Source: Mya arenaria
Taxonomy: Eukaryota; Mollusca; Bivalvia; Myida; Myidae
Direction of reading: 5' to 3'
Assembly (NCBI RefSeq): GCF_026914265.1
Contig: NC_069136.1
Span: 33,441,368 to 33,505,367 of the forward strand
Length of the DNA stretch: 64,000 bases
The position numbers and the translations under genes were made by a program. The notes under the pieces are model-generated. The model was not told where the DNA came from and searched no databases. It worked only from the letters and a program-made list of their open reading frames with translations. Shown here in pieces: positions 18,633 to 61,640 of this stretch (positions within the stretch are counted from its first letter, which is position 1; each line of letters begins with the position of its first letter).

Positions 18633-19451
18633 TCATGGTCTTTCGTCATCCGCAAGATCGGCGAACATTTTAGAGTTCTCGGAGAGGTTGTTGGAATTTG
18701 ACTCGTCAATGCACACAGTCCTTCGTTTGATCTTCTCGGCGTTGACATGTAACGGTCTGTGGGTTCTGGCGTGCATGACTATAGGTAAAGGGCACCCGAT
18801 TCTCGGCCTTTGGAGTCCGATAATCAACTTCTTGAAGACGTTTTTCAGCAGCCAGTCTGTTATTCTGCTTTTGCACATAAACGCTCATCAAATGTGCACT
18901 GACGTTGGTCGCCACCGCAGGACTACAATGACTGTTCGCAGACAGGTAGCTGAGTGCCCCCAGTGCGCAATCCCGGTAGCCGGTCTGGTGAGAGGTTGTG
19001 GAGGAACCACCCTCTGTGGCGTCGGTGACTACGCGAACGGTCCGCTGCCGCTGCTGCAGACGTGTCAGATGAAAGACTGTGAGCTCCAAAATGTCCGCCT
19101 TGTCAACACGCGTCGTTGATGACACTTGAAGATAGCAAACCAAATGTGGCGTTCGATTTACTGATGCAATCATGTAATTATAAAAATCACAGAATGACCT
19201 CACTAATTTGTTCTATATAAAAAATGTTAAAATTCTATGATATTTGATTTATTTAGGTTTTTACTATAACATTATTTTTCACGGACGGCACTTATGTACA
19301 TGTTATGAATATTTATGATGATGAGGTGCCCAGTTGGCATGGTTTGCAAGACGGACGTATACTGTGCCGATTGGCTGATAAGGAGCTTGAGGCGGTCAAT
19401 AATCGCGTTCATCCTCTCGCGGCGTTGACGCCCAACTAGGGGTTTGCGTAC
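18633..19451 (-). CDS. Hes/E(spl)-type bHLH-Orange gene, divergent and possibly decayed
   Basis: The upstream exon starts at 19451 after TTGCAG and reads VRKPLVGRQRRERMNAIIDR then LKLLI, a Hes-type basic region (with its Pro) and helix 1. The next exon, starting near 19124 after TTCAAG, reads TTRVDKADILELTVFHLTRL (helix 2). An Orange domain follows (GYRDCALGALSYLSANSHC). Such proteins are Notch-linked transcriptional repressors. Three things are odd. The basic region has VGRQRR where the family has VERQRR, so the base-contacting Glu is missing. No obvious donor after helix 1 keeps frame with the helix 2 exon. The Orange frame stops at 18706, while another frame continues to end ...DDERP at 18633, close to a C-terminal xRPW with the last Trp codon turned to TGA. 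A pseudogene or assembly indels are both possible. Confidence 0.62.
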
Positions 19452-22747: not shown

Positions 22748-23270
22748 ATTATACCTCACTTCTATAGAACATAGCAGTAAGCAGTGTGTGTATACCACGT
22801 GATAAATTGCGTCATAAATGCTACGTCGGAAGGCAATATTTTGCTTCGAATGAAGAAAAAAAAGATAACTTCACAATTTATTCATCATTTTGAATGAAAC
22901 ATAGCGCAGTCTACGCCGCTTACGGAGCCCCGCATTCGGTCTTTTACCACAGTTTGATTTAGAGTTTAGTTTTTTAAAAAACTTCGACAAACCTTTTCAC
23001 AATACGGCGTCTGACGAAGCACTGTCAAAACATTATTTTGGAAACGGGGTTGTCGAAGTGTTTGATGAAACTTAACTCTCAATCAAACTGTGGTAAAAGA
23101 CCGAAGGCAGGGCTCTTAAGGCGACATAGACTGCCCTTTGTTTTATTTAAAATGGTGCAGTAAAAGAAAAGTTATCTATGTTTTAAGTTTTCATTTCGAG
23201 CAAAGTGTTGCCTTCCGACGTAGCATATATGACGTAACTTATCGAGTGGTATACACATACTGGTAAAAGC
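22748..23270. mobile_element. Foldback transposon with TATACCTCACTTCTAT end
   Basis: Starts TATACCTCACTTCTATAGAA. Subterminal arms GTATACCACGTGATAAATTG...TGCTACGTCGGAAGGCAA and TTGCCTTCCGACGTAGCA...ATCGAGTGGTATACACA pair almost end to end, and further matched blocks (CATAGCGCAGTCTACGCCGC) lie inside. Fragments with the same terminal motif follow at about 23412 and 23535, and a related CTTGAGG...CCTCAAG inverted repeat lies at about 23690-23800. A homologous element sits inside each 5.4-kb unit downstream. Confidence 0.8.
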
Positions 23271-28402: not shown

Positions 28403-29675
28403 TGTACGTGCACAAACCTCATTCTTATCCCAACAATCCTGAATAAAAGCCAGTAATTTCTATACATTTGTATTCTTGATACGTTATAATATTCCATCGC
28501 ATAGCAAATATGCCGCATTTAAAAAAAATACAGTTTTTTCTAGCTTCTATATTTAGAACTGTGCATTAATCATTCAGGAAATATGCAAATAAGTTTGATT
28601 TTTTTTTTGTATTTTGGCAGAACAAATAAAGACTACGTGACAATATCACTTCAAAAATATTGTTTCAAGTTGATACCTATTTTAAATGAAATTGTTTGTC
28701 TTTAAAGACATGTATATGTATACATTTTTGCAAACATACAAGGAAATCTATAATTACTAAATCTGTCTATCAAAAACAAATAATTTCTTTTATTACTTTT
28801 ACATTTATAACATGGCAAATTTTCTAACAAGACATTCACAACATATAACTGTTACAAATGTTTGTAATAAATCGATGTATCGATATTTGGTATTTATAAT
28901 TCTGTACCAATTTGGACGACAACGCACGAGTAACATGAATTTTCAGCATCTGTGACATCAATTTCAAACTGTTAATTTTATTTGACCGATCTATGAATGT
29001 GTAACACACTGAGAAAAAAGTTTCTCAAAACACAGTCATAACAACAGCAATGCTAAAGTTAATTGGTAGTGTTGTTTATTTCGGTCATTTTAGACCACAT
29101 CTATTTTCTGTCTTTGAGCGGGCCGGATAAATAAAAAATAATTAAGTTGATATTGTGAAAATTGTTGACAAAGCAACTTTATTATTTCCATAAAATGTAG
29201 ACGTAATGAAAAACTGCTGCCATCTTCCTGACTTGTTGGAATTACATGATATGTATTGCATTGTTTGACAAAAACACAGTTGCGGCAACTCTCAGATGAA
29301 CGAACAACCTCAGTGTCATGTTATCTCTCTAATCTAAGCTATTGCATAACAGGCATACAATATTTGATGTATAATATGGTTTTGAATGCATGTGACTGTT
29401 ACCACTTCTGGCTTACAATCTGATTCATTGATTTTCTCGTAAAAAGGGGGAAAAAACTCGTAGAATTCAAAGTAACACATCGTTGAATTTGTTTAAACAC
29501 CACAAGTTTATACTACTTTCATATTAAAACGATTTGATAAACAATGAACTTTCTTTTCCCTTTTCAATAAGTTAATTTGCGGATATTCCTGATGTTAACG
29601 TATTTTGCATTCGCGCATTTGTTTTTCACAACATTTTTATCATTTCTATTCAGAAACTGAGAAAGATCCAACACA

Positions 29676-30377
29676 ATGCTGTTCAAGTACACCCTGGTAT
29701 TGCTTGTCTGCGTAATCCTGATTGGCACATCCGATGCATGGTTATTCCGCAGAAGAAATAAGGAGAAGCTTGTGTATACGAGCGGGGGGGTGAAAATCAA
29801 GTTAGTAGTAAAGAGACCATCGAGTCTTGTCAGACCGGAAAAGGAACTAGGTTGTAAGGTAATGGCAAGAATACAAGATACTTAGGTCACTACACAAATT
29901 TCGAGCATTTGTTGGAGACTTTCCATTTGTATTGTTTTAATATAAAACTGATATCCATGCTGTTGTCAGGATTTTCTTCGTAATACTCAAGATCTTACAG
30001 ATAGTTTAAACATTTGCAAATATTGGATGAACGATAACTTCTTATCAACTTCTTCACTACATTGAACGTTTGATATTTTTTCTTTCCACAAGTATGCCGC
30101 AATCTCTCCATACAGCCCGAACAATCGTTTTTAAACCCTCAGAACATATTGAACGCTGCACAAATACATGTACACCATATCTCATATAACCCAATTATAT
30201 GCTAGACAAGACTTATAATTGGATATGAATATCTTCCAGGATATCGAGGGTTGCGGAGGGATACGGGATGCACCTAGCGGTATAGGAAAAGCTGGTGGAG
30301 CTGCCGCCGCAGGGATTGCGGACGGAAGTGCCGACATGAGAGATGCTATGGCAGCTGCTGGAGTTGGAGTTACTTAA
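29676..30377 (+). CDS. Secreted cationic / Gly-Ala-rich peptide precursor, copy 1
   Basis: Two coding exons, 29676-29858 and 30240-30377, with donor AAG/GTAATG and acceptor TTCCAG/GATATC, phase 0. They encode 106 residues. Residues 1-21 form a signal peptide (hydrophobic LVLLVCVILIG, cleavage expected after SDA). Residues 22-61 start WLFRRRNKEK and carry 12 basic against 3 acidic residues. Cys60 and Cys66 could form a small disulphide loop across the intron position. Residues 67-106 are Gly/Ala-rich and mildly acidic (GIGKAGGAAAAGIADGSADM). A TTTCTATTCAG acceptor-like site 26 nt before the ATG suggests an untranslated 5' exon. The stop is followed by A/GTAACT, a probable donor, and an acceptor at 30833 leads to a 3' UTR exon with AATAAA. 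I do not recognise the family; a defence peptide is possible but unproven. Confidence 0.82.
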
Positions 30378-30939
30378 AGTAACTGAAATCTCGATTCAAA
30401 TGATTACTGATATGCATTTTAATCATCAATGAGCCGATTGTTCAGTATTTTGTTCCAGTTAACAACGTTGTTAGGTTGTCTACTTTCAAATCTTTACTGC
30501 TATGTATTTACTGTATTGAAATAAGCGACTTAAGCATGTTAAGCTTAAGAAGTTTCGAGAAATTGGGGCCATATTGTTAACTTTAAAAACGTTCTGAACA
30601 ATCGGCGAAATGTTTGCTTTCCAGAAATAGTTCCCGTAAGAAGCAAACTGCATTCAGAGACTAATTACACATACATATTAATGAAGTAATTGTTATTTCT
30701 GAGTGGTATTCGTTGACAAAAGGATTTTGAAATGCACAGAAGCTTTTGCTCATTTCTTTATTAAAGATATATTCATATTTGAACATTAAACCATTCTTTT
30801 AAACTGGACGAATGTTTTTATCTTTACTTTCAGATGTCGATCATTTAAAATCTACAAACACAATGAATACCGCCGGAGAAAAAAGGATTTTAGCTGGCTT
30901 GGAAGAATATGTATAGATTATGAAGTATATTATTTTAAC

Positions 30940-30945
30940 AATAAA
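30940..30945 (+). promoter_or_regulatory. AATAAA polyadenylation signal of the peptide gene (copy 1)
   Basis: Lies about 100 nt into the proposed 3' UTR exon that begins at 30834 after CTTTACTTTCAG. The same site is at 36350-36355 and 41768-41773 in the other copies. Confidence 0.55.
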
Positions 30946-31913
30946 TTTATTTCTCAAAGAAACAAGACTTCTGATTGCTCGATATGCAAGTTGTTTTGTA
31001 TGTTTGTTTTTTAAACGATTCAAATCTAACTGAACAATATTCAATAACAACATTAAATAAACTGATGTTAAATAGCCTTAAATAAACTGATGTTGAATAG
31101 CCTTAAATAAACTGATGTTAAATAGTAGAATCTGAGTACTTTTATTGTATTGTTAACTAAATTGGCCGATCGAGTAAATGAAATCACTGAGGCACGTGTA
31201 GGGATACGTATAAGACTACCGTACATTTTTATATGACGCCTCAAACATGAATTATGCAACGCCATTGAACCTGTCCTGGTCACGCGGTGACCCCATATGT
31301 TTCCATATTTACCAAAATGGCGTCATATTTTCGCTACCGATGAATGAATAAAACATTTCTTATAAATTAATAAATGTTAACAGCTTGCCGTGATAAGAAG
31401 GTGACCCGATATTGGATACACGGGGCGCTGGAGACAATTTTCTTGTTCGTGCGCGATATCATTTTCTTTGCCCCTTAAGTCCCAAAAATGGGGCACCTAC
31501 TAATCAGTACAACTCACGTTATGTGTCAATGTGAAATTCTCATAAACACGATATCCGTATAATAATGTACCCTTCCATGTAATGCTTTTCACCGTGTTTC
31601 CCACGAGTGAGTTTCACAAAAACGATTAACTGATTTCTCAAGCGCCTGGGTGTAATATTTCCTTTTGAAATATAGTTCAAAAGTCGAGTAAGAAGACGCA
31701 ATAATCTAAAACTTGAAATTTAAATTAAACGAAACAGTTTATTATATAACGTCATACTAGTATCAACGCGGAAACCTTTTCTATCAGTGAAAACAATATT
31801 TGTTCAGTATGTTAAACAAAAACATCAGATCATATAGAGGGTGACAGCATATAATCGTAACCCTTGAAGCAGTTATGTCGCCTAGGTTGACATGAACTTT
31901 TTCGGGTTAACAT

Positions 31914-32402
31914 TCAGTGTGTGTATACCACGTGATAAATTGCGTCATAGATGCTACGTCGGACGGCAAAATTTTTGATTGAAAAAAAAGACTTTAAACA
32001 AAGATAACTTCACTTTTTCTTCACCATTTTAAATGAAACATAGCGCAGTCTATGCCGCTTACAGAGACCCTTCTTCGGTCTATCACCAGAATTTGAATGC
32101 GGGTTTGGTTTCTTAAAACAATTTGACAAACCTTTTCACAATACGGCCGTCTGACGGAGCACTGTCGAAACATTATTTTGGAAACAGGTTTGTCGAAGTG
32201 TTTAATGAAACTAATGACCTCATCAAATTTCGGAATAAAAGAAATGCGGGGCTCTTTAAGCGGCATAGACTGCCCTCTGTTTCATTTAAAATGGTATTGT
32301 AAATGAAAATTTATTTTTGATTTAAGTCTTCATTTTAAGCAAATCTTTGCCTTTCAACGTAGCATATATATGACGTAATTTATCACGTGGTATACACACA
32401 CT
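31914..32402. mobile_element. Foldback transposon inside the 5.4-kb unit (copy 1)
   Basis: Arms CAGTGTGTGTATACCACGTG...and its complement at the right end enclose blocks such as ATGAAACATAGCGCAGTCTA. It is the same family as 22748-23270. The right-hand terminal motif GTTCTATAGAAGTGAGGTAT lies at about 32811-32830. Being present at the same point in all copies (about 37324 and 42743), it predates the triplication. Confidence 0.78.
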
Positions 32403-33282
32403 GACATTGTAAACAATCACCTTCCATGGGATCTGATATTTATATAATATTGAATAGGGTTGAGTTAATTTCGCGTATTTTGATCTGTAATATATACAGT
32501 GGATCAATATTGAACTAATAGTATATTCTTTTAGTTGTTTATAAACGAAAGAGGTTTATTTTCATGAACATACAGGCAAATGAATATATTTTATAAATAT
32601 TTACTGCCTTGAGCTCTTGACAATGCATATTGTCAATCCGAGGTAAATGCTGCAAACCGAGGCGAAGCCTTAAGGCTGTCAATGTCTATTTTACCATACC
32701 GAACAAAACACTTTCATGGGATTTCATGACATCAGAGGGAAACAGTGCGGCAGAGGTAGATAGTGCGGGATGAAAATCGAAATTATTGTCCTTGCGTTTT
32801 TACTATTTGTTCTATAGAAGTGAGGTATAATATTTGTTATATAAATAATGTATCGCCTGCAACATAACTCAGTTTTTGTTCAACATATCCATTGAAGTGG
32901 TATTATTCCGCATTATCTTTTATTTGTAGATAACGCCAAAGTGAATATGATAAATGTTTTGCTTCATCGATGGTTTCCTGGACCAGGGACAGCCTATCTA
33001 TTTATAGTTCATTTTATAAATTCACAATAATTATGTAGACATTTAAAGGAGGTACTAAGAAAGTTGGGAAAAACGTACTTTATACGCATCGCCTGAACGC
33101 AGGTTGTAAAATGTTACAACATAAAAATAGTTTTATCGTAGAATTCAATGGCCGATAATATAAATGATCATCATACCTGAGCAATTTTAACGTGATACAA
33201 GATACAAGATACAAGAATCTTTATGTACAGAAGGGTATATGATCACAAAAAGAAATTAGCTCACTGAGCTAATTTCAGACAT

Positions 33283-33675
33283 GATAAGCTATTCTCCGAC
33301 ATATTGAGCTATTCTCCGACATGATGAGCTATTCTCCGAGCTTTTCTCCGACATGATGTGCCATATTCCGAGATAATGAGCTATTCTCCGACATGATGAG
33401 CTATTCTCCGACATGATGAGCTATTCTCCGACATGATGATCTATTCTCCGACATGATGAGCTATTCTCCGACATGATGAGCTATTCTCCGACATGACGAG
33501 CTATTCTTTGACATGATGTTCCATGTTCCGACATGATGAGTTATTCTCCGACATTAAGAACTATTCTCAGATATGATATGCCATGTTCCGACATGATGAG
33601 CTATTATCCGATATGATGTGCCATGTTCCGAGATGATGAGCTATTCTCCGACATGATGTGCCATATTCCGAGATG
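33283..33675. repeat. 20-bp minisatellite in the 5.4-kb unit (copy 1)
   Basis: Units of about 20 bp, GAGCTATTCTCCGACATGAT, with variants GTGCCATGTTCCGAGATGAT. Matching arrays are at about 38690-39092 and 44095-44500. The order of variants differs between copy 1 and copies 2/3. It is preceded by a TACAAGATACAAGA stretch. Confidence 0.92.
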
Positions 33676-34058
33676 ACCACTCGCTTGTTGATTATGAGCA
33701 CAATAGGCTTTTAACATAAATGTTCAAAATAATAATTAAAAAACAACGACAAAAAACAAAAACACATAAACGTCTTCAATCAGATTCATTTTATTTAACA
33801 AACCAACACATAACAAATGAAAATCATGCGCAAAAAGAACATAAATGGTGAATGCATCTATTATTTTTGGTAAACTTTGTGAGTATTATGAATTCATAGA
33901 ATACATAATAACAAAGAAGCAATTTACCAAACATTCTTATGTTTCTTATAACAGGAGCAATCTTAAAAAAAATCTTTTTCTGTTTTGGTTTAAACAGCTA
34001 GACTGAGTGTAAATTTAATCAATTTTAGTTTATGGCCTTAGAGTTGTGCCTTCAAACA

Positions 34059-37000
34059 CTTCAAAAATATTGTTTCAAGTTGATACCTATTTTAAATGAA
34101 ATTGTTTGTCTTTAAAGACATGTATATGTATACATTTTTGCAAACATACAAGGAAATCTATAATTACTAAATCTGTCTATCAAAAACAAATAATTTCTTT
34201 TATTACTTTTACATTTATAACATGGCAAATTTTCTAACAAGACATTCACAACATATAACTGTTACAAATGTTTGTAATAAATCGATGTATCGATATTTGG
34301 TATTTATAATTCTGTACCAATTTGGACGACAACGCACGAGTAACATGAATTTTCAGCATCTGTGACATCAATTTCAAACTGTTAATTTTATTTGACCGAT
34401 CTATGAATGTGTAACACACTGAGAAAAAAGTTTCTCAAAACACAGTCATAACAACAGCAATGCTAAAGTTAATTGGTAGTGTTGTTTATTTCGGTCATTT
34501 TAGACCACATCTATTTTCTGTCTTTGAGCGGGCCGGATAAATAAAAAATAATTAAGTTGATATTGTGAAAATTGTTGACAAAGCAACTTTATTATTTCCA
34601 TAAAATGTAGACGTAATGAAAAACTGCTGCCATCTTCCTGACTTGTTGGAATTACATGATATGTATTGCATTGTTTGACAAAAACACAGTTGCGGCAACT
34701 CTCAGATGAACGAACAACCTCAGTGTCATGTTATCTCTCTAATCTAAGCTATTGCATAACAGGCATACAATATTTGATGTATAATATGGTTTTGAATGCA
34801 TGTGACTGTTACCACTTCTGGCTTACAATCTGATTCATTGATTTTCTCGTAAAAAGGGGGAAAAAACTCGTAGAATTCAAAGTAACACATCGTTGAATTT
34901 GTTTAAACACCACAAGTTTATACTACTTTCATATTAAAACGATTTGATAAACAATGAACTTTCTTTTCCCTTTTCAATAAGTTAATTTGCGGATATTCCT
35001 GATGTTAACGTATTTTGCATTCGCGCATTTGTTTTTCACAACATTTTTATCATTTCTATTCAGAAACTGAGAAAGATCCAACACAATGCTGTTCAAGTAC
35101 ACCCTGGTATTGCTTGTCTGCGTAATCCTGATTGGCACATCCGATGCATGGTTATTCCGCAGAAGAAATAAGGAGAAGCTTGTGTATACGAGCGGGGGGG
35201 TGAAAATCAAGTTAGTAGTAAAGAGACCATCGAGTCTTGTCAGACCGGAAAAGGAACTAGGTTGTAAGGTAATGGCAAGAATACAAGATACTTAGGTCAC
35301 TACACAAATTTCGAGCATTTGTTGGAGACTTTCCATTTGTATTGTTTTAATATAAAACTGATATCCATGCTGTTGTCAGGATTTTCTTCGTAATACTCAA
35401 GATCTTACAGATAGTTTAAACATTTGCAAATATTGGATGAACGATAACTTCTTATCAACTTCTTCACTACATTGAACGTTTGATATTTTTTCTTTCCACA
35501 AGTATGCCGCAATCTCTCCATACAGCCCGAACAATCGTTTTTAAACCCTCAGAACATATTGAACGCTGCACAAATACATGTACACCATATCTCATATAAC
35601 CCAATTATATGCTAGACAAGACTTATAATTGGATATGAATATCTTCCAGGATATCGAGGGTTGCGGAGGGATACGGGATGCACCTAGCGGTATAGGAAAA
35701 GCTGGTGGAGCTGCCGCCGCAGGGATTGCGGACGGAAGTGCCGACATGAGAGATGCTATGGCAGCTGCTGGAGTTGGAGTTACTTAAAGTAACTGAAATC
35801 TCGATTCAAATGATTACTGATATGCATTTTAATCATCAATGAGCCGATTGTTCAGTATTTTGTTCCAGTTAACAACGTTGTTAGGTTGTCTACTTTCAAA
35901 TCTTTACTGCTATGTATTTACTGTATTGAAATAAGCGACTTAAGCATGTTAAGCTTAAGAAGTTTCGAGAAATTGGGGCCATATTGTTAACTTTAAAAAC
36001 GTTCTGAACAATCGGCGAAATGTTTGCTTTCCAGAAATAGTTCCCGTAAGAAGCAAACTGCATTCAGAGACTAATTACACATACATATTAATGAAGTAAT
36101 TGTTATTTCTGAGTGGTATTCGTTGACAAAAGGATTTTGAAATGCACAGAAGCTTTTGCTCATTTCTTTATTAAAGATATATTCATATTTGAACATTAAA
36201 CCATTCTTTTAAACTGGACGAATGTTTTTATCTTTACTTTCAGATGTCGATCATTTAAAATCTACAAACACAATGAATACCGCCGGAGAAAAAAGGATTT
36301 TAGCTGGCTTGGAAGAATATGTATAGATTATGAAGTATATTATTTTAACAATAAATTTATTTCTCAAAGAAACAAGACTTCTGATTGCTCGATATGCAAG
36401 TTGTTTTGTATGTTTGTTTTTTAAACGATTCAAATCTAACTGAACAATATTCAATAACAACATTAAATAAACTGATGTTAAATAGCCTTAAATAAACTGA
36501 TGTTGAATAGCCTTAAATAAACTGATGTTAAATAGTAGAATCTGAGTACTTTTATTGTATTGTTAACTAAATTGGCCGATCGAGTAAATGAAATCACTGA
36601 GGCACGTGTAGGGATACGTATAAGACTACCGTACATTTTTATATGACGCCTCAAACATGAATTATGCAACGCCATTGAACCTGTCCTGGTCACGCGGTGA
36701 CCCCATATGTTTCCATATTTACCAAAATGGCGTCATATTTTCGCTACCGATGAATGAATAAAACATTTCTTATAAATTAATAAATGTTAACAGCTTGCCG
36801 TGATAAGAAGGTGACCCGATATTGGATACACGGGGCGCTGGAGACAATTTTCTTGTTCGTGCGCGATATCATTTTCTTTGCCCCTTAAGTCCCAAAAATG
36901 GGGCACCTACTAATCAGTACAACTCACGTTATGTGTCAATGTGAAATTCTCATAAACACGATATCCGTATAATAATGTACCCTTCCATGTAATGCTTTTC

Positions 37001-39476
37001 ACCGTGTTTCCCACGAGTGAGTTTCACAAAAACGATTAACTGATTTCTCAAGCGCCTGGGTGTAATATTTCCTTTTGAAATATAGTTCAAAAGTCGAGTA
37101 AGAAGACGCAATAATCTAAAACTTGAAATTTAAATTAAACGAAACAGTTTATTATATAACGTCATACTAGTATCAACGCGGAAACCTTTTCTATCAGTGA
37201 AAACAATATTTGTTCAGTATGTTAAACAAAAACATCAGATCATATAGAGGGTGACAGCATATAATCGTAACCCTTGAAGCAGTTATGTCGCCTAGGTTGA
37301 CATGAACTTTTTCGGGTTAACATTCAGTGTGTGTATACCACGTGATAAATTGCGTCATAGATGCTACGTCGGACGGCAAAATTTTTGATTGAAAAAAAAG
37401 ACTTTAAACAAAGATAACTTCACTTTTTCTTCACCATTTTAAATGAAACATAGCGCAGTCTATGCCGCTTACAGAGACCCTTCTTCGGTCTATCACCAGA
37501 ATTTGAATGCGGGTTTGGTTTCTTAAAACAATTTGACAAACCTTTTCACAATACGGCCGTCTGACGGAGCACTGTCGAAACATTATTTTGGAAACAGGTT
37601 TGTCGAAGTGTTTAATGAAACTAATGACCTCATCAAATTTCGGAATAAAAGAAATGCGGGGCTCTTTAAGCGGCATAGACTGCCCTCTGTTTCATTTAAA
37701 ATGGTATTGTAAATGAAAATTTATTTTTGATTTAAGTCTTCATTTTAAGCAAATCTTTGCCTTTCAACGTAGCATATATATGACGTAATTTATCACGTGG
37801 TATACACACACTGACATTGTAAACAATCACCTTCCATGGGATCTGATATTTATATAATATTGAATAGGGTTGAGTTAATTTCGCGTATTTTGATCTGTAA
37901 TATATACAGTGGATCAATATTGAACTAATAGTATATTCTTTTAGTTGTTTATAAACGAAAGAGGTTTATTTTCATGAACATACAGGCAAATGAATATATT
38001 TTATAAATATTTACTGCCTTGAGCTCTTGACAATGCATATTGTCAATCCGAGGTAAATGCTGCAAACCGAGGCGAAGCCTTAAGGCTGTCAATGTCTATT
38101 TTACCATACCGAACAAAACACTTTCATGGGATTTCATGACATCAGAGGGAAACAGTGCGGCAGAGGTAGATAGTGCGGGATGAAAATCGAAATTATTGTC
38201 CTTGCGTTTTTACTATTTGTTCTATAGAAGTGAGGTATAATATTTGTTATATAAATAATGTATCGCCTGCAACATAACTCAGTTTTTGTTCAACATATCC
38301 ATTGAAGTGGTATTATTCCGCATTATCTTTTATTTGTAGATAACGCCAAAGTGAATATGATAAATGTTTTGCTTCATCGATGGTTTCCTGGACCAGGGAC
38401 AGCCTATCTATTTATAGTTCATTTTATAAATTCACAATAATTATGTAGACATTTAAAGGAGGTACTAAGAAAGTTGGGAAAAACGTACTTTATACGCATC
38501 GCCTGAACGCAGGTTGTAAAATGTTACAACATAAAAATAGTTTTATCGTAGAATTCAATGGCCGATAATATAAATGATCATCATACCTGAGCAATTTTAA
38601 CGTGATACAAGATACAAGATACAAGAATCTTTATGTACAGAAGGGTATATGATCACAAAAAGAAATTAGCTCACTGAGCTAATTTCAGACATGATAAGCT
38701 ATTCTCCGACATATTGAGCTATTCTCCGACATGTTGAGCTATTCTCCGACATGGTGAACTATTCTCCGATATGATGTGCCATATTCCGAGATGATGAGCT
38801 ATTCTCCGACATGTTGAGCTTTTCTCCGACATGAAGAGCTATTCTCCGACATGATGATCTATTCTCCGACATGATGAGCTATTCTCCGACATGATGAGCT
38901 ATTCTCCGACATGACGAGCTATTCTTTGACATGATGTTCCATGTTTCGACATGATGAGTTATTCTCCGACATTAAGAACTATTCTCAGATATGATATGCC
39001 ATGTTCCGACATGATGAGCTATTATCCGATATGATGTGCCATGTTCCGAGATGATGAGCTATTCTCCGACATGATGTGCCATATTCCGAGATGACCACTC
39101 GCTTGTTGATTATGAGCACAATAGGCTTTTAACATAAATGTTCAAAATAATAATTAAAAAACAACGACAAAAAACAAAAACACATAAACGTCTTCAATCA
39201 GATTCATTTTATTTAACAAACCAACACATAACAAATGAAAATCATGCGCAAAAAGAACATAAATGGTGAATGCATCTATTATTTTTGGTAAACTTTGTGA
39301 GTATTATGAATTCATAGAATACATAATAACAAAGAAGCAATTTACCAAACATTCTTATGTTTCTTATAACAGGAGCAATCTTAAAAAAAATCTTTTTCTG
39401 TTTTGGTTTAAACAGCTAGACTGAGTGTAAATTTAATCAATTTTAGTTTATGGCCTTAGAGTTGTGCCTTCAAACA
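34059..39476 (+). repeat. 5.4-kb tandem unit, copy 2
   Basis: 5418 bp. By eye it is the same as copy 1 over long stretches, including the whole peptide gene. The exception is the 20-bp minisatellite near its right end, where it matches copy 3 instead. Confidence 0.96.
35086..35787 (+). CDS. Secreted cationic / Gly-Ala-rich peptide precursor, copy 2
   Basis: Exons 35086-35268 and 35650-35787. Coding sequence and splice sites appear the same as in copy 1, so the two genes would give the same 106-residue precursor. The surrounding intron and flanks also match, which indicates a very recent duplication or ongoing homogenisation. Confidence 0.82.
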
Positions 39477-42400
39477 CTTCAAAAATATTGTTTCAAGTTG
39501 ATACCTATTTTAAATGAAATTGTTTGTCTTTAAAGACATGTATATGTATACATTTTTGCAAACATACAAGGAAATCTATAATTACTAAATCTGTCTATCA
39601 AAAACAAATAATTTCTTTTATTACTTTTACATTTATAACATGGCAAATTTTCTAACAAGACATTCACAACATATAACTGTTACAAATGTTTGTAATAAAT
39701 CGATGTATCGATATTTGGTATTTATAATTCTGTACCAATTTGGACGACAACGCACGAGTAACATGAATTTTCAGCATCTGTGACATCAATTTCAAACTGT
39801 TAATTTTATTTGACCGATCTATGAATGTGTAACACACTGAGAAAAAAGTTTCTCAAAACACAGTCATAACAACAGCAATGCTAAAGTTAATTGGTAGTGT
39901 TGTTTATTTCGGTCATTTTAGACCACATCTATTTTCTGTCTTTGAGCGGGCCGGATAAATAAAAAATAATTAAGTTGATATTGTGAAAATTGTTGACAAA
40001 GCAACTTTATTATTTCCATAAAATGTAGACGTAATGAAAAACTGCTGCCATCTTCCTGACTTGTTGGAATTACATGATATGTATTGCATTGTTTGACAAA
40101 AACACAGTTGCGGCAACTCTCAGATGAACGAACAACCTCAGTGTCATGTTATCTCTCTAATCTAAGCTATTGTATAACAGGCATACAATATTTGATGTAT
40201 AATATGGTTTTGAATGCATGTGACTGTTACCACTTCTGGCTTACAATCTGATTCATTGATTTTCTCGTAAAAAGGGGGAAAAAACTCGTAGAATTCAAAG
40301 TAACACATCGTTGAATTTGTTTAAACACCACAAGTTTATACTACTTTCGTATTAAAACGATTTGATAAACAATGAACTTTCTTTTCCCTTTTCAATAAGT
40401 TAATTTGCGGATATTCCTGATGTTAACGTATTTTGCATTCGCGCATTTGTTTTTCACAACATTTTTATCATTTCTATTCAGAAACTGAGAAAGATCCAAC
40501 ACAATGCTGTTCAAGTACACCCTGGTATTGCTTGTCTGCGTAATCCTGATTGGCACATCCGATGCATGGTTATTCCGCAGAAGAAATAAGGAGAAGCTTG
40601 TGTATACGAACGGGGGGGTGAAAATCAAGTTAGTAGTAAAGAGACCAGCGAGTCTTGTCAGACCGGAAAAGGAACTAGGTTGTAAGGTAATGGCAAGAAT
40701 ACAAGATACTTAAGTCACTACACAAATTGCGAGCATTTGTTGGAGACTTTCCATTTGTATTGTTTTAATATAAAACTGATATCCATGCTGTTGTCAGGAT
40801 TTTCTTCGTAATACTCAAGATCTTACAGATAGTTTAAACATTTGCAAATATTGGATGAACGATAACTTCTTATCAACTTCTTCACTACATTGAACGTTTG
40901 ATATTTTTTCTTTCCACAAGTATGCCGCAATCTCTCCATACAGCCCGAACAATCGTTTTTAAACCCTCAGAACATATTGAACGCTGCACAAATACATGTA
41001 CACCATATCTCATATAACCCAATTATATGCTAGACAAGACTTATAATTGGATATGAATATCTTCCAGGATATCGAGGGTTGCGGAGGGATACGGGATGCA
41101 CCTAGCGGTATAGGAAAAGCTGGTGGAGCTGCCGCCGCAGGGATTGCGGACGGAAGTGCCGACATGAGAGATGCTATGGCAGCTGCTGGAGTTGGAGTTA
41201 CTTAAAGTAACTGAAATCTCGATTCAAATGATTACTGATATGCATTTTAATCATCAATGAGCCGATTGTTCAGTAATTTGTTCCAGTTAACAACGTTGTT
41301 AGGTTGTCTACTTTCAAATCTTTACTGCTATGTATTTACTGTATTGAAATAAGCGACTTAAGCATGTTAAGCTTAAGAAGTTTCGAGAAATTGGGGCCAT
41401 ATTGTTAACTTTAAAAACGTTCTGAACAATCGGCGAAATGTTTGCTTTCCAGAAATAGTTCCCGTAAGAAGCAAACTGCATTCAGAGACTAATTACACAT
41501 ACATATTAATGAAGTAATTGCTATTTCTGAGTGGTATTCGTTGACAAAAGGATTTTGAAATGCACAGAAGCTTTTGCTCATTTCTTTATTAAAGATATAT
41601 TCATATTTGAACATTAAACCATTCTTTTAAACTGGACGAATGTTTTTATCTTTACTTTCAGATGTCGATCATTTAAAATCTACAAACACAATGAATACCG
41701 CCGGAGAAGAAAGGATTTTAGCTGGCTTGGAAGAATATGTATAGATTATGAAGTATATTATTTTAACAATAAATTTATTTCTCAAAGAAACAAGACTTCT
41801 GATTGCTCGATATGCAAGTTGTTTTGTATGTTTGTTTTTTAAACGATTCAAATCTAACTGAACAATATTCAATAACAACATTAAATAAACTGATGTTAAA
41901 TAGCCTTAAATAAACTGATGTTGAATAGCCTTAAATAAACTGATGTTAAATAGTAGAATCTGAGTACTTTTATTGTATTGTTAACTAAATTGGCAGATCG
42001 AGTAAATGAAATCACTGAGGCACGTGTAGGGATACGTATAAGACTACCGTACATTTTTATATGACGCCTCAAACATGAATTATGCAACGCCATTGAACCT
42101 GTCCTGGTCACGCGGTGACCCCATATGTTTCCATATTTACCAAAATGGCGTCATATTTTCGCTACCGATGAATGAATAAAACATTTCTTATAAATTAATA
42201 AATGTTAACAGCTTGCCGTGATAAGAAGGTGACCCGATATTGGATACACGGGGCGCTGGAGACAATTTTCTTGTTCGTGCGCGATATCATTTTCTTTGCC
42301 CCTTAAGTCCCAAAAATGGGGCACCTACTAATCAGTACAACTCACGTTATGTGTCAATGTGAAATTCTCATAAACACGATATCCGTATAATAATGTACCC

Positions 42401-44883
42401 TTCCATGTAATGCTTTTCACCGTGTTTCCCACGGGTGAGTTTCACAAAAACGATTAACTGATTTCTCAAGCGCCTGGGTGTAATATTTCCTTTTGAAATA
42501 TAGTTCAAAAGTCGAGTAAGAAGACGCAATAATCTAAAACTTGAAATTTAAATTAAACGGAAACAGTTTATTATATAACGTCATACTAGTATCAACGCGG
42601 AAACCTTTTCTATCAGTGAAAACAATATTTGTTCAGTATGTTAAACAAAAACATCAGATCATATAGAGGGTGACAGCATAAAATCGTAACCCTTGAAGCA
42701 GTTATGTCGCCTAGGTTGACATGAACTTTTTCGGGTTAACATTCAGTGTGTGTATACCACGTGATAAATTGCGTCATAGATGCTACGTCGGACGGCAAAA
42801 TTTTTGATTGAAAAAAAAGACTTTAAACAAAGATAACTTCACTTTTTCTTCACCATTTTAAATGAAACATAGCGCAGTCTATGCCGCTTACAGAGACCCT
42901 TCTTCGGTCTATCACCAGAATTTGAATGCGGGTTTGGTTTCTTAAAACAATTTGACAAACCTTTTCACAATACGGCCGTCTGACGGAGCACTGTCGAAAC
43001 ATTATTTTGGAAACAGGTTTGTCGAAGTGTTTAATGAAACTAATGACCTCATCAAATTTCGGAATAAAAGAAATGCGGGGCTCTTTAAGCGGCATAGACT
43101 GCCCTCTGTTTCATTTAAAATGGTATTGTAAATGAAAATTTATTTTTGATTTAAGTCTTCATTTTAAGCAAATCTTTGCCTTTCAACGTAGCATATATAT
43201 GACGTAATTTATCACGTGGTATACACACACTGACATTGTAAACAATCACCTTCCATGGGATCTGATATTTATATAATATTGAATAGGGTTGAGTTAATTT
43301 CGCGTATTTTGATCTGTAATATATACAGTGGATCAATATTGAACTAATAGTATATTCTTTTAGTTGTTTATAAACGAAAGAGGTTTATTTTCATGAAAAC
43401 ACAGGGAAATGAATATATTTTATAAATATTTACTGCCTTGAGCTCTTGACAATGCATATTGTCAATCCGAGGTAAATGCTGCAAACCGAGGCGAAGCCTT
43501 CAGGCTGTCAATGTCTATTTTACCATACCGAACAAAACACTTTCATGGGATTTCATGACATCAGAGGGAAACAGTGCGGCAGAGGTAGATAGTGCGGGAT
43601 GAAAATCGAAATTATTGTCCTTGCGTTTTTACTATTTGTTCTATAGAAGTGAGGTATAATATTTGTTATATAAATAATGTATCGCCTGCAACATAACTCA
43701 GTTTTTGTTCAACATATCCATTGAAGTGGTATTATTCCGCATTATCTTCTATTTGTAGATAACGCCAAAGTGAATATGATAAATGTTTTGCTTCATCGAT
43801 GGTTTCCTGGACCAGGGACAGCCTATCTATTTATAGTTCATTTTATAAATTCACAATAATTATGTAGACATTTAAAGGAGGTACTAAGAAAGTTGGGAAA
43901 AACGTACTTTATACGCATCGCCTGTACGCAGGTTGTAAAATGTTACAACATAAAAATAGTTTTATCGTAGAATTCAATGGCCGATAATATAAATGATCTT
44001 CATACCTGAGCAATTTTAACGTGATACAAGATACAAGATACAAGAATCTTTATGTACAGAAGGGTATATGATCACAAAAAGAAATTAGCTCACTGACATG
44101 ATAAGCTATTCTCCGACATATTGAGCTATTCTCCGACATGTTGAGCTATTCTCCGACATGGTGAACTATTCTCCGATATGATGTGCCATATTCCGAGATG
44201 ATGAGCTATTCTCCGACATGTTGAGCTTTTCTCCGACATGAAGAGCTATTCTCCGACATGATGATCTATTCTCCGACATGATGAGCTATTCTCCGACATG
44301 ATGAGCTATTCTCCGACATGACGAGCTATTCTTTGACATGATGTTCCATGTTCCGACATGATGAGTTATTCTCCGACATTAAGAACTATTCTCAGATATG
44401 ATATGCCATGTTCCGACATGATGAGCTATTATCCGATATGATGTGCCATGTTCCTAGATGATGAGCTATTCTCCGACATGATGTGCCATATTCCGAGATG
44501 ACCACTCGCTTGTTGATTATGAGCACAATAGGCTTTTAACATAAATGTTCAAAATAATAATTAAAAAACAACGACAAAAAACAAAAACACATAAACGTCT
44601 TCAATCAGATTCATTTTATTTAACAAACCAACAAATAACAAATGAAAATCATGCGCAAAAAGAACATAAATGGTGAATGCATCTATTATTTTTGGTAAAC
44701 TTTGTGAGTATTATGAATTCATAGAATACATAATAACAAAGAAGCAATTTACCAAACATTCTTATGTTCCTTATAACAGGAGCAATCTTAAAAAAAATCT
44801 TTTTCTGTTTTGGTTTAAACAGCTAGACTGAGTGTAAATTTAATCAATTTTAGTTTATGGCCTTAGAGTTGTGCCTTCAAACA
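39477..44883 (+). repeat. 5.4-kb tandem unit, copy 3
   Basis: 5407 bp, complete to the same CTTCAAACA end and followed by unique sequence (GGCCATTTGCAGGG). It carries scattered substitutions relative to copies 1 and 2, and a 13-bp deletion at the start of the minisatellite (CTCACTGACATGATAAGC). Confidence 0.96.
40504..41205 (+). CDS. Secreted cationic / Gly-Ala-rich peptide precursor, copy 3 (variant)
   Basis: Exons 40504-40686 and 41068-41205, with structure as in the other two copies. Two replacements in the cationic part distinguish it: Ser36 to Asn (AGC to AAC) and Ser49 to Ala (TCG to GCG). I see no silent change in exon 1 and no change in exon 2. Splice sites and stop are intact, so this copy should be expressible. 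Confidence 0.82.
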
Positions 44884-46481: not shown

Positions 46482-48323
46482 TTATGCGGCGGTGCTGACT
46501 TCTAAAGAAGTGCTATTATCTGGTGCTTCATCCTTTATAAATTGGTGGTAATAAGCATCTGAAAAAGGAAAATATAATTGCAAATAAATGCAGAATTTCT
46601 GAATATATATACAATGATAGACAAAGTTCTGTACGTTGATGAAACAGTACAGAAGCGGACAAAAATCATATCATTAAAGCAAATGAAAAAAAATAAAACA
46701 CTTGTTTTGACAATGAATGTGACATTATTACACAACGATTTTCCATGATACATTCTGATTTTTTTATAACATCCAATATCTTTTAACCATGGATGGTTAA
46801 AATAGATACAATACTATATAAATAATATATAAATTGATAGATGATGCTTACGGGCAAAGAGCAAAGGCGCTCCATTAAACTCATCTGTATTAAGCTCCCC
46901 ATCATCTACAAAACAAACGGAGATACATTAAGGCAGCAATCTCACAGGTATATCATTTTTACAACTTTTTTGTTTTTTGTTTGTCTTGGAAAGAGCAAAT
47001 TTTTGCATAATTATCTGCAAACCAATGATGAAAGATTGCTGGCAAAAAAATAGATCTTAGATTTTCATATTTCCGTTCGAAAACTAATGTTTTGTGGCTC
47101 AAACCGTTACTAATAGTTTTAGAAGTTTTTGAACTTAAATATAAAAATCAGCTACCTGTTTTTGTCAGCAGTCTTTTATAACTGGTTTCCATGGATTTTC
47201 GCAAAAAAATGGTTCGTTACAAGACAAAAAAATATACAAAAAATTGTCAAAACGTTCAATCTGTGAGAGTGCAGCTTTAATATTATTGGCGCGTCAAGCG
47301 GTTTAACATATTAAAGGTATGCAGCAAATGCTAACGTCAGCCTTTTTATATCATTTCTTTTTCCGTTAAAGGGGCTGTATTCCGTATGATGAAATAGCGA
47401 AAAAAAATTTGTCGAAAACTGACATACTAGTAAACTGGGTATCGATGTGTACAATGCTTTGAAACTTACTAGCTGAAGTACCACATAGTTTACACTTAAT
47501 TTATTTTTCGCAGTTTTTTCGCATTTTTTCATTCGTAGCACAGTGGATACAACACTGGAGTGCAATTTTGGCGACACCGGTTAGAACCCGGCCTCCGACT
47601 CGATTTTTTTTTACATTTTGGTATTTTTTTTACAACTATGATATCAAAGAGTAAAACATTTTATGAAATAATTGTTCTGAGCTTCGTTACAGAAAAAAAC
47701 TTTTTTGGTGCCAATCTGGTGTACAGTCCCTTTAATCGAAGTAAAGACAGTTTAACTGGACCTCTATGACTTAGAGTAACAAGTATGTGAATTTTGAATG
47801 CATGGTGACTCCATATTATTCTGTTTATTGAAAAGTTTCATATTTAGAGAAAGTATATGTAAAAATAATACTTCATGTCCAAAACCAAAAACGTACTGCG
47901 ATAACTATCTATTATAATGTGTTTTCGTACAAAGATGGTTCACTGACGTAATAGAGGTTATGTCAAAATCGAAATAAATGCAACTAAGATTAATATCGAT
48001 GTAATGTTATCTCATTAAAATCATATCATCAATAATCACTTCACAACTTTACACACCGTAATGAAATGAAGCGAATGTCCCGATATGATTTTAGTGCGAT
48101 TGATATAAATGTTAACTCTCTGATAATTTTTTTTATGACAAATCGTCAACTCACGATTAAAGTCCGCTAAGTTGAACGGTTCCCTCAGCTCCATCGGATC
48201 TGCCAAGTCCACTGTCCTCATGATGGTGAATACAAACTCCTCATATTCAATACGCTTGTCATCATTCATATCGTAGTCCCTAAAGTCGTCTGAGAACGCC
48301 AGAAACTCCACGCCGTCTTCAAC
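46482..48323 (-). CDS. EF-hand calcium-binding protein, last three coding exons
   Basis: Exons on the minus strand: 48323-48155, 46905-46852 and 46558-46482, all with GT-AG borders and consistent phases (300 nt, 99 residues plus TAA). The first exon holds an EF-hand loop DMNDDKRIEYEE (Asp1, Asn3, Asp5, Glu12). The junction of exons one and two builds a second loop, DFNHDGELNTDE. The tail is YYHQFIKDEAPDNSTSLEVS. Such paired EF-hands bind calcium, but the specific protein is not identified. The exon at 48323 starts at an acceptor (CTCTCAAAG), so one or more upstream exons with the N-terminus are missing from this model; I could not locate them to the right. Two MITE-type insertions lie in the first intron shown. 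Confidence 0.82.
46932..47276. mobile_element. Foldback TTAA MITE (intron of the EF-hand gene)
   Basis: Flanked by TTAA at 46928-46931 and 47277-47280. The left end is diverged (GGCAGCAATCTCACAGGTAT) and the right end intact (AATCTGTGAGAGTGCAGCT). Orientation is opposite to that of the copy at 61689. Confidence 0.88.
47370..47731. mobile_element. TTAA-flanked element with a tRNA-like core
   Basis: Ends AGGGGCTGTA and TACAGTCCCT lie between TTAA at 47366-47369 and 47732-47735. The middle holds GTAGCACAGTGGATACAAC and CCGGTTAGAACCC, which resemble Pol III A and B boxes. A second, right-truncated copy is at 56476-56853. A SINE-like core between DNA-transposon-like ends is unusual. Confidence 0.75.
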
Positions 48324-48689: not shown

Positions 48690-49395
48690 CGGTATATATT
48701 CTATTCATTCTCAGAGGTGTTGAAGCAGTGCTTCAACACCCCTGTTCTCTATACAATGTATACAGCCAGAGATTTTGAAGATTTACTTCAACTCCTCTGT
48801 TATAGTCTATATACATTGTGGAAGCGTGCACTATACTCTATTCATTGTCAAGAGGTGTTGAAGCAGTGCTTCAACACCCCTGTTCTCTATACAATGTATA
48901 CAGCCAGAGATTTTGAAGATTTACTTCAACTCCTCTGTTATAGTCTATATACATTGTGGAAGCGTACACTATACTCTATTCATTCTTAGAGGTGTTGAAG
49001 CAGTGCTTCAACACCTCTGTTCTCTATGCAATGTATACAGCCAGAGATTTTGAAGATTTACTTCAACTTCTCTGTTATAGTCTATATACATTGTGGTAGC
49101 GTGATCTATACTCTATTCATTTTCAGAGGTGTTGAAGCAGTGCTTCAACACCCCTGTTCTCTATGCAATGTATCAACCAGAGATTTTGAAACTTTACATC
49201 AATTCCTCTGTTATAGTCTATATACATTGTGGTGGCGTGCACTATTCTCTATCTGTAAATTTGAACCTGTGTTATAGTCTATATACATTGTGGTAGCGTG
49301 CACTATACTATACTCATTGTCAGAGGTGTTGAAGCAGTGCTTCAACACCTCTGTTCTCTATTCAATGTATACAAACGGAGATTTTTGAACAAAAA
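48690..49395. repeat. 137-bp tandem array with an embedded palindrome, about 5 copies
   Basis: Units repeat about every 137 bp. Each contains the arms GGTGTTGAAGCA and TGCTTCAACACC around a single G (a perfect 12-bp hairpin) at 48716, 48854, 48991, 49128 and 49325. The rest of the unit includes GTTATAGTCTATATACATTG and GCGTGCACTATACTCTATTC. The last interval carries about 60 extra bp from a partial unit. The repeated peptide frame at 48717-49277 is an artefact. Confidence 0.93.
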
Positions 49396-52177: not shown

Positions 52178-53235
52178 ACAAGAGCTGTCACAGAGACAGC
52201 GCTCTCGACTATTCCGCTGCTTTTCAGTGTAAGGATTGAAAAGTTTTGGCGAAACATGCATGGATCACTGTTAGATTAGATTTCAATGCAATACATGATG
52301 TGCGGAGATATTAACATAAATGTGGTTACATGCAAAATTTTAACCAGAATTTTTATCTAACTTGATTATTCAGTTAGGTTGGGTGGTTGTATAAAGTCTC
52401 AATGCAATTCATACAGTAGTTGCTGAGATATTAACCTATGTGTGCTTACATGCAAAACCTTAACCAGAATTTCTGAGTGAAATAATAAAGGCAAGTATTT
52501 GCATTAAATGCAAACTATAGTTATATAACTTGGAAAATTAAGTAGGTTGGATGGTTGAGTACCATTCATGATTGTATCAAGTCTCAATGCAATACCTCAA
52601 GCAGTTGCTGAGATATTAAACTATGTGTGCTTGCATGCAAAACCTTAACCAGAATTTCTAAGTCAAATAATAAAGGCCTATTATTTATATTAAATGCAAA
52701 CTAGAGTTATCTTACTTGTTTAAATAAGTAGGTTGGATGGTTGAGTACCATTGTATCAAGTCTCAATGCAATACCTCAAGCAGTTGCTGAGATATTAACC
52801 TATGTGTGCTTGCATGCAAAACCTTAACTAGAATTTCTAAGTCAAATAATAAAGGCCTATTATTTACATTAAATGCAAACTAGAGTTATCTTACTTGTTT
52901 AAATAAGTAGGTTGGATGGTTGAGTACCATTGTATCAAGTCTCAATGCAATACCTCAAGTAGTTGCTGAGATATTAACCTATGTGTGCTTGCATGCAAAA
53001 CATTAACCAGAATTTCTAAGTCAAATATTAAAGGCCTATTATTGGCATTAAATGCAAAGTAGTTATCAAACTTGGTTAATTAAGTAGGTTGGATGGTTGA
53101 GTACCATTGTATAAAGTCTCAATGCAATACCTCAAGTAGTTGCTGAGATATTTACCATGTGTGCTTGCACGCAAACCCTTAACCAAGGGGTGACGCCAAC
53201 GCCGACGCTTGGGTGAGTAGTATAGCTCTCCATAT
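52178..53235 (-). mobile_element. Non-autonomous element with ~180-bp tandem core, CTCTTGT end
   Basis: On the minus strand the element starts near GGAGAGCTATACTACTCACC (53235) and ends with hairpin GCTGTC-TCTGT-GACAGC followed by TCTTGT (52200-52178). Its body is about five tandem units of roughly 180 bp sharing CAAGTCTCAATGCAATACC, GTTGCTGAGATATTAACC and TGTGTGCTTGCATGCAAAAC. No coding capacity. Internal tandem cores and a terminal hairpin recall non-autonomous Helitron-like elements, including the pearl-type elements of bivalves (inference). Confidence 0.72.
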
Positions 53236-59577: not shown

Positions 59578-61640
59578 TAGCTCCACTGGCCGAAGGCCAT
59601 GGAGCTTATGTCGTCACAGATTGTCCGTCGTGAGTGCGTGCGTGCGTGCGTGCGTAAACTTTTACTTTAAACGACATCTCCTCTGAAACTGATAAGCGGA
59701 TTTTGACAAAACTTCACAGGAATGTTCGTTTGGTGGTCCTTTACTTAAATTGCTCAAATGGTTCCGGTCCATTGCACAATATGGCCGCCAGAGCTAAAAA
59801 TAGCAAAATCTTTAAACGACATCTCCTATGAAACGGTTCGGCAGATTTTGATGAAACTTGACAGTAATGTTCCTTGGGTGGTCCTTTATTAAAATTGCTC
59901 AAATGGTTCTGGTCCATTGCACAATATGGCCGCCACAGCTAAAAATAGCAAAATCTTTAAACGACATCTCCTCTGAAACGGATTGGCAGATTTTGATGAA
60001 ACTTGACAGAATTGTTCCTTGGGTGGTCCTTAACCAAAATTGCTCAAATGGTTCCGGTCCGCTGCACAACATGGCTGCCAGGGCAAAAAAATAGAAAAAC
60101 CTTTAAAGAACATCTTCTCAGAAACCGATGATCAGATTTTGATGAAACTTAACAGAAATGTTCCTTGGATGGTCCTTTATCAAATTTGCTTCAATGGTTT
60201 CGGTCCACTGCACAAGATGGCCCCCAGAGGTAAAAATAGAAAAACCTTTAAACGACTTCTCCTCAGAAACCGATGATCGTATTGCAATGAAACTTGACAG
60301 AAATGTTACTTGGGTAGTCCTTAACCAAAATAGCCCAAACAGTTCTGGTCTGCTGCACACCATGGGCACCAGAGCTAAGAATAGAAAAAAACGTTAAACT
60401 ACATCTTCTCAGAAACCGATTATCAGATTTTGATGAAACTTTACATAAATGTTCATCGGGATGCCCTTTAACCAAAATTGCCCAAATGGTTCCGGTCCGC
60501 TGCACAACATGGCTGCGAGAGTCAAAAATAGAAAAACCTTTAAGGACTTCTCGTCCGCAGTCTTCACGAAAAACATTTTAACCTACTAGCCAGTTGGACT
60601 AGCATAATGGCATATTTTACTAGTCCAAATGACAATCTAGTAGTCCGACTATTTTGCCACATTATAAAACTGTATGCTTGAGGTAAATACCTATTTCAAT
60701 TGAGCAGCTTGCAGTTTGAGTAAACATTTCTTTATTATGATGCTCATGCAGTGATAGGGAGTGACATCCTTCTGTTGGGAATAGTGCTCCTTGTTTTTCA
60801 GAACCTATGGGTACCATGTAAAAACAAAAGGCATCTTGCTTGAATAGACTGTAATAATATCAACATGGTTAAAAAAGAAATGCCATGCTTTAATAGCTTT
60901 GATTACATTTTACTACTGAATTACCTCCCTTTAATAGAAAAAAAATAATGTCTTAATTTTTCACGTATAGCATCTTTAAATAATTTTTAAACAATAATAA
61001 TTTATGAGTAAACATATAAGCATAAAGTTCTCACAAAAAGATCAATTTAAAAACCTTACATTTATACATAGGAAAGTATATATAGACTGAACATTCGTTT
61101 AAGTGACATTCTGAAAGTTTATGAAACATCTATTTTTAGTAACTTAAATGGCCGAAAAGTGTAAGTGAAACACCAAGTCGATTCTATCTCGTCAGTTCTT
61201 GTTCAGGTTAGATATTTGCTTCATAATCTATTCAGATTAAATGTTAACCGATGATCAGATTTTGATGAAACTTGACAGAAATGTTCCTTGGGTGGTCATT
61301 AACCAAAATTTGTTAAATGGTTCCAGTCCACTGCACACCATGGCTGCCAGAGCTAAAAAATAAAAAACTTTATACGACTGGTCGTCGAAACCGATGACCT
61401 TTTTTTGATAAAACTTGACAGAAATGTTTGTTTGGTGCTCCTTTACTCAAATTGCCCAAATCATTTCGGTCCACTGCACAACATGGCAGCCAGAGCTATT
61501 AAAGTAAAAATTTTTTTTAAATAACTTCTCCTCAAAAATTGATGATTGTATTTCTATGAAACTTGACGAAAATGTTCGTTAGGTGGTCTTTGCTTGAACC
61601 TTTTGGCCAGTGGAGCACAGGCACTGATGTGCCTCTTGTT
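59578..61640 (+). mobile_element. Non-autonomous element with 146-bp tandem core, CTCTTGT end
   Basis: Starts TAGCTCCACTGGCCGAAGGCC (hairpin GGCC-GAA-GGCC) and ends TTTTGGCCAGTGGAGCACAG then hairpin GGCAC-TGAT-GTGCC followed by TCTTGTT. The body is about eight units of 146 bp with TTTGATGAAACTTGACAG, AATGTTCCTTGGGTGGTCC and GCACAACATGGC. About 700 bp of unrelated sequence (60545-61245) interrupts the array. No coding capacity; period-146 reading frames are artefacts. Confidence 0.8.
60545..61245. other. Insertion inside the 146-bp array
   Basis: Non-repetitive AT-rich sequence between two parts of the tandem core. It contains ACTAGTCCAA/TTGGACTAG-type inverted motifs at 60585-60650. No coding capacity and no clear duplication at its borders. 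Confidence 0.5.

Follow-up and report, generated by a model that had tools for sequence, protein, structure and literature searches.

A head-to-tail triplicated 5.4-kb unit in Mya arenaria carries the gene of a short, putatively secreted member of a clam precursor family

The stretch of DNA analysed here, 64,000 nucleotides of contig NC_069136.1 from the bivalve Mya arenaria (forward-strand positions 33,441,368 to 33,505,367; hereafter the window), contains three direct head-to-tail repeats of 5410, 5418 and 5407 bp at window positions 28649-44883, each with a gene for a small protein that carries a hydrophobic leader. Comparison of the window with itself gave two direct alignments, a longer one of 10839 bp (99.5% identity) and a shorter one of 5421 bp (99.1%), and for repeats this long and this identical chance is ruled out. 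Both inner junctions have the same sequence, while the left and right outer flanks are unlike the junction and unlike each other. The borders are sharp, and the two bases preceding the left border are the same as the two preceding the right border (“CA”), so that the first duplication event is one at 2-bp microhomology. With direct copies, a single junction sequence and differing flanks, the array has the structure of a recent tandem duplication. A foldback element and a 20-bp minisatellite that occur in every unit were considered as duplication breakpoints and rejected, because the borders fall in neither.

Outside the minisatellite, units 1 and 2 are identical over 4998 of 4998 bp, and zero differences in about 5 kb place them less than about 0.06% apart (95% limit). 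Unit 3 differs from both by 21 single-nucleotide variants (SNVs) and one 1-bp indel, a count that leaves out the minisatellite columns of the alignment and its final column, which is a slice edge, and it is the odd one out at all 22 differing sites. By SNVs alone, unit 3 lies 0.42% from units 1 and 2. Apart from the 1-bp indel in unit 3, the length differences between the units sit in the minisatellite; there, unit 1 shows several changes besides an 8-bp gap, and unit 3 is without 12 bp at the minisatellite start. Patchy conversion across unit 3 was considered and set aside, the 21 SNVs being consistent with an even spread in what is a weak test (Kolmogorov-Smirnov p 0.26). A rough yardstick for these values comes from the available part of PMC10663159, which reports 10.7 million SNVs common to transmissible-cancer samples and absent from the 1.22-Gb reference; this corresponds to about 0.9% of sites, with both alleles of the founder clam counted. 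The divergence of unit 3 is below this yardstick, and therefore the common ancestry of the array copies seems to fall within the range of variation in the species, or the copies are homogenised. Recent amplification or homogenisation of the units fits these observations. A previous reading made from the sequence alone (the sequence-only reading) had described a head-to-tail triplication with exactly these unit lengths, near-identity that includes intron and intergenic parts, and a young local amplification or homogenised cluster, all of which agrees with our self-comparison, the junctions and the divergence values.

Each unit encodes a protein of 106 amino acids, its coding sequence split over two exons whose splice sites are of the GT-AG type, and start, splice sites, stop and reading frame are intact in all three units. 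Units 1 and 2 encode an identical protein, referred to as P0001, which is an exact match to MAR_013910 of Mya arenaria, and the protein of unit 3 carries two missense changes, S36N and S49A. The conserved leader has 21 residues and was judged by eye to be a signal peptide. Two cysteines follow the leader, and the net charge of the peptide is +9 in the exon A segment and −3 in exon B. Pairs of basic residues (KR and RRR) occur inside exon A only. A splice acceptor lies immediately upstream of the ATG; together with a terminal-like exon downstream, described below, it suggests that the transcript may have four exons. The intact two-exon gene per unit of the sequence-only reading thus holds for the coding part in all three units, but perhaps not for the transcript. 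A second gene inside the unit was rejected by inspection of the stop-to-stop frames of at least 45 amino acids in unit 1, which, apart from the known gene, were inspected only and not compared with a family library or a protein database.

Three protein searches, in which 2 of 34 candidates matched at E up to 1, 3 of 76 at E up to 10 and 9 of 21 at E up to 0.1, brought together ten protein records in all, including P0001 and all from Mya arenaria (here numbered P0001 to P0010). No relatives outside this species were found in these searches, whose word filter misses distant relatives, and no published account of the family was found under the locus names of its members or, at the level of listings, by topic. 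Nine of the records sit on one contig of 58.0 Mb and P0007 on another of 83.6 Mb. Six locus tags fall within MAR_013893 to MAR_013910, a numbering which suggests a single cluster. P0004 and P0005 differ by a single inserted segment, probably a phase-0 exon, and probably represent one gene annotated twice. In the fullest form, a member comprises the leader, a cationic segment ending in GCK, a four-Cys segment, KR, two EF-hands and an end of the type HVEHSKSTNTM. The cationic segment is the variable part, and in these fullest forms the EF-hand tail is acidic. Five of the nine relatives (P0005 and P0007 to P0010) have the four-Cys segment. Four of them (P0007 to P0010) have it in a Gly/Ala-rich form, and in four (P0005, P0007, P0009 and P0010), though not in P0008, its fourth Cys is followed by KR. 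At E up to 0.1, EF-hand_1 matched 8 of the 10 records, all eight being relatives of P0001, with at least P0003 under the Pfam cut-off; when ten proteins of the window and the family were compared with Pfam, EF-hand matches stayed under the cut-off and the remaining matches were all weak. A PDB search with P0009 returned calmodulin-type EF-hands (best E 8e-7, among the best 60 of 187 sequences), and an AlphaFold model of P0007 with six relatives was too poor for use (mean predicted local distance difference test, pLDDT, 35).

The P0001 leader is identical at 15 to 19 of 21 positions to those of the five other members compared, and C60 and K61 are invariant in all ten records. Judged by its leader and the ...CK end of its cationic segment, the triplicated gene can be assigned to this leader-sharing family of Mya arenaria. 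Compared with the array protein, P0002 (MAR_013901) shows a frame change within exon B, which is decay, an assembly error or an annotation error. P0008 (MAR_013894) and P0010 (MAR_013906) are nearly identical across about the first 115 residues, a likeness that suggests a further recent duplication within the family.

No EF-hand match was found in the 5.4-kb unit, and the array protein terminates in exon B. Behind the stop, however, each unit contains a putative exon (at 30834 in unit 1) that reads DVDHLKSTNTMN... and resembles HVEHSKSTNTMS of the EF-hand relatives. This exon is opened by a splice acceptor, and its phase fits the GT that lies one base after the exon B stop. We propose that it is probably a remnant of the terminal exon of the family. 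Because a terminal-like exon persists behind a gene without EF-hand exons, and because phase and position agree, loss of the EF-hand exons is favoured for the triplicated gene over a primitive tail-free form. Exons of the one EF-hand relative found in the window lie beyond the array, at 46482-48323, and no leader exon was detected for this relative within the window. That these are the lost exons of the array itself was considered and rejected, since they lie on the opposite strand and apparently have their own terminal exon.

Pairwise identities were determined for 15 pairs of six members picked from the ten to exclude near-duplicates. Mean identity was 0.81 in the leader and 0.41 in the cationic segment (15 pairs), and 0.83 in the first EF-hand (the six pairs having it). 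P0003 and P0009 share 17 of 21 leader residues, 12 of 37 columns of the cationic segment (32%) and 47 of 48 positions of the first EF-hand (98%); for P0004 and P0007, a less extreme pair, the values are 16 of 26 in the cationic segment and 34 of 48 in the EF-hand. P0001 and P0002 agree at 19 of 21 leader positions and at 12 of 15 of residues 53-67, and at 8 of 31 in between. Fast diversification or exon swapping could both give such a variable middle, and protein records cannot separate the two. All ten records have a cationic segment with a net charge of +8 to +12; for the remainder of the protein, starting at PFSD, the charge is −5 to −11 in the seven records where this part could be marked. 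In P0004 and P0007, the cationic segment is strongly helix-amphipathic (0.77 and 0.73), with none of 2000 shuffles as high.

Table 1 Coordinates of the tandem units, their genes and associated features (window positions)
Feature	Position	Strand	Remark
Tandem unit 1	28649..34058	+	5410 bp; self-comparison, junction reading
Tandem unit 2	34059..39476	+	5418 bp; self-comparison, junction reading
Tandem unit 3	39477..44883	+	5407 bp; self-comparison, junction reading
Unit 1 coding exon A	29676..29858	+	leader and cationic segment, ends ...GCK, phase-0 donor
Unit 1 coding exon B	30240..30377	+	Gly/Ala-rich, one Cys, to TAA stop; GT donor one base past stop
Unit 1 probable leftover terminal exon	30834..30960	+	behind stop; AATAAA at 30940; 3' end approximate
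Unit 2 coding exon A	35086..35268	+	
Unit 2 coding exon B	35650..35787	+	
Unit 3 coding exon A	40504..40686	+	carries S36N and S49A
Unit 3 coding exon B	41068..41205	+	same as units 1 and 2
20-bp minisatellite, unit 1	33265..33676	+	holds every difference between units 1 and 2
20-bp minisatellite, unit 2	38675..39094	+	counterpart of unit 1 minisatellite
20-bp minisatellite, unit 3	44095..44501	+	counterpart of unit 1 minisatellite
Foldback/MITE-like element	31914..32404		~490 bp, self-complementary; one per unit; self-comparison
First EF-hand exon of family relative	48155..48323	-	61% identical to P0003 over 57 aa; edges by eye
Second EF-hand exon of same relative	46852..46905	-	edges by eye
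Probable terminal exon of same relative	46482..46558	-	by eye

Around the array, the window is dense in minisatellites (1-2863, 3901-5116, 7365-8302, 15439-16705, 48695-49252, 52387-53185 and 59665-60543), the largest of which has a 37-bp unit in about 77 copies from the left edge of the window. A diverged copy of the foldback element, which resembles a miniature inverted-repeat transposable element (MITE), lies outside the array at 22782-23262 and is about 82% identical. The window further contains a tRNA gene at 15152-15233 (Rfam, 62.8 bits) and, on the minus strand, an open frame at 18709-19212 with weak Hairy/Orange and HLH similarity under the Pfam cut-offs.

The long clam relatives share their precursor plan with the mytimycins, antifungal peptides of Mytilida, and both groups are multigene and variable (PMC8004829). 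According to the available part of that paper, a mytimycin gene begins with a non-coding exon, its product joins a cationic mature peptide by way of a dibasic site to an anionic EF-hand tail whose role is unknown to the authors, and mytimycins are held to be restricted to Mytilida. The long clam relatives would share this arrangement, from the presumed non-coding first exon and the signal peptide to the acidic EF-hand tail. The triplicated gene has the cationic peptide behind the putative signal peptide, but neither the dibasic site at the tail nor the anionic EF-hand tail. At that boundary it is like one mytimycin form of Perumytilus purpuratus without EF-hand and dibasic site; in the same available text, the authors leave undecided whether the EF-hand-less form is ancestral or a product of exon loss (PMC8004829). 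While the mature mytimycin has ten invariant cysteines, the clam proteins range from one to four after the leader, with two in P0001 and four or fewer in eight of the nine relatives; P0002 has eight, counted across its frame change. As a further difference, full-length clam records have two EF-hand loops. We do not claim the clam gene as a mytimycin, since the cysteine array fails; the likeness would lie in the precursor plan. Cecropin-type peptides are linear and amphipathic. P0007 and P0004 are alike in starting with Trp and a Lys-rich amphipathic helix, which in P0007 is followed by a Gly/Ala-rich part. The clam family is unlike cecropin-type peptides in its cysteines and EF-hand tail, and the triplicated gene is without the helix pattern; the two are likened by description. 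As a variable bivalve multigene family of small, putatively secreted peptides, the clam genes also resemble the antimicrobial-peptide genes with presence/absence variation in the Mytilus pan-genome (PMC7653742, available part).

We read the locus, with modest confidence, as a recent local amplification of a short, EF-hand-less, host-defence-like secreted peptide gene. A 5.4-kb segment would have been duplicated in tandem at the 2-bp microhomology and unequal exchange between units would probably have brought the copy number to three, with units 1 and 2 as the last to split or the last converted. The passenger gene would be an EF-hand-less member of the clam family of secreted precursors, and its most likely job would be host defence; once the peptide had been secreted and its leader cut off after SDA, the basic N-terminal part would act on microbes, and three copies could raise the dose. 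In the long relatives, the acidic tail would balance the basic peptide, neutralising it up to the moment of cleavage. No cleavage from a tail would be required in the short triplicated form, which would be secreted ready. The sequence-only reading had named a small secreted peptide and a dose increase of the kind usual in immunity and venom-like gene families. Secretion fits the conserved hydrophobic leader and the following net +9 segment, which varies more among relatives than the leader. A link to immunity is suggested by the mytimycin-like precursor plan (PMC8004829, available part) and not by small size alone, while “venom-like” gained no support of its own.

Alternatively, the array might be an assembly artefact in which one or two real units came to be represented three times, for example from two alleles or from a repeated overlap in long-read assembly and gap filling. 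We give this a rather low probability. The reference, from which we infer that the window originates, was built from one clam with PacBio reads, FALCON-Unzip, Hi-C, gap filling and 10x polishing, following a diploid strategy for high bivalve heterozygosity (PMC10663159, available part). The absence of any difference between units 1 and 2 over 4998 bp is also expected from assembly duplication and thus weakens the case for amplification, the divergence of unit 3 is compatible with two alleles, and several, not all, of the unit 1 minisatellite changes run toward the commonest repeat, as consensus smoothing would give. However, clean inner junctions, differing outer flanks and the 2-bp microhomology are as in real duplications, the minisatellites of all three units differ, and 22 sites separate units 1 and 2 from unit 3. 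A real array might still be neutral, as a short-lived tandem duplication of a decaying member without present function, to which we assign a rather low probability. The unit is without an EF-hand exon, P0002 as the nearest relative of the array gene departs in frame, both coding differences of unit 3 alter the protein, and the minisatellite-rich surroundings may favour rearrangement. Intact start, splice sites and stop in all three units speak against decay, as does the comparison of P0001 with P0002, whose conservation at both ends around a diverged middle suggests constraint at both ends. We give a similarly low probability to another role of the secreted peptide, for instance in signalling, mucus or shell matrix. 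The mantle of molluscs contains secreted EF-hand proteins, the antimicrobial role of the array peptide is predicted, and the RRR and KR pairs of exon A are possible processing sites. A variable segment between conserved parts, here a cationic segment flanked by conserved leader and conserved EF-hand, is nevertheless a usual mark of defence and venom peptides. The precursor plan is also that of an antimicrobial family of mussels (PMC8004829, available part). Our probabilities for the preferred explanation and for these alternatives overlap and do not sum to one.

Several further results weigh against the reading of a recently amplified host-defence gene that arose by exon loss. Taken alone, the match of the exon at 30834 to the last exon of the relatives is weak (E 0.07 to 0.13). 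The frame shift of P0002 in exon B resembles a decaying gene or an error, and the two coding differences of unit 3, both missense, give no sign of purifying selection. For P0001, a Pfam search at E up to 10 returned no families, a PDB search gave no meaningful match (a single match, E 0.15), and a single-sequence AlphaFold model was too poor for use (mean pLDDT 50). The variable middle is not universal, as P0003 and P0004 agree at 25 of 26 positions in the cationic segment and at 43 of 48 in the EF-hand, and length difference accounts for part of the low cationic identity. The charge balance fails in P0010 (remainder +2) and in P0002 (+4, across the frame change); both annotations are doubtful, that of P0010 being without the first EF-hand. 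The cationic segment of the triplicated peptide is not helix-amphipathic (0.08, a value reached by 92% of shuffles), and as a strand its amphipathicity is weak (0.51, 4% of shuffles; 0.40, 7%, with a shorter cut); those of P0002 and P0008 are also not amphipathic. By these measures, P0004 and P0007 are better candidates for an antimicrobial peptide than the triplicated one.

In a wider and more tentative interpretation, to which we give somewhat less than even weight, Mya arenaria would have a host-defence precursor family in which the leader and the EF-hand tail stay fixed and the intervening peptide is replaced, a mytimycin counterpart outside Mytilida by descent or convergence. The triplicated genes would be tail-free exon-loss versions of it, amplified recently enough that clams should differ in copy number. 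The clam unit points to exon loss in a family built like the mytimycins and thus bears on the question, left undecided in the available part of PMC8004829, whether tail-free forms are ancestral or have lost the tail. If the array is real, it would be a good site to observe how copies of a bivalve peptide gene are born, become homogenised and change in number, because its copies differ less than conspecific genomes do by our rough yardstick.
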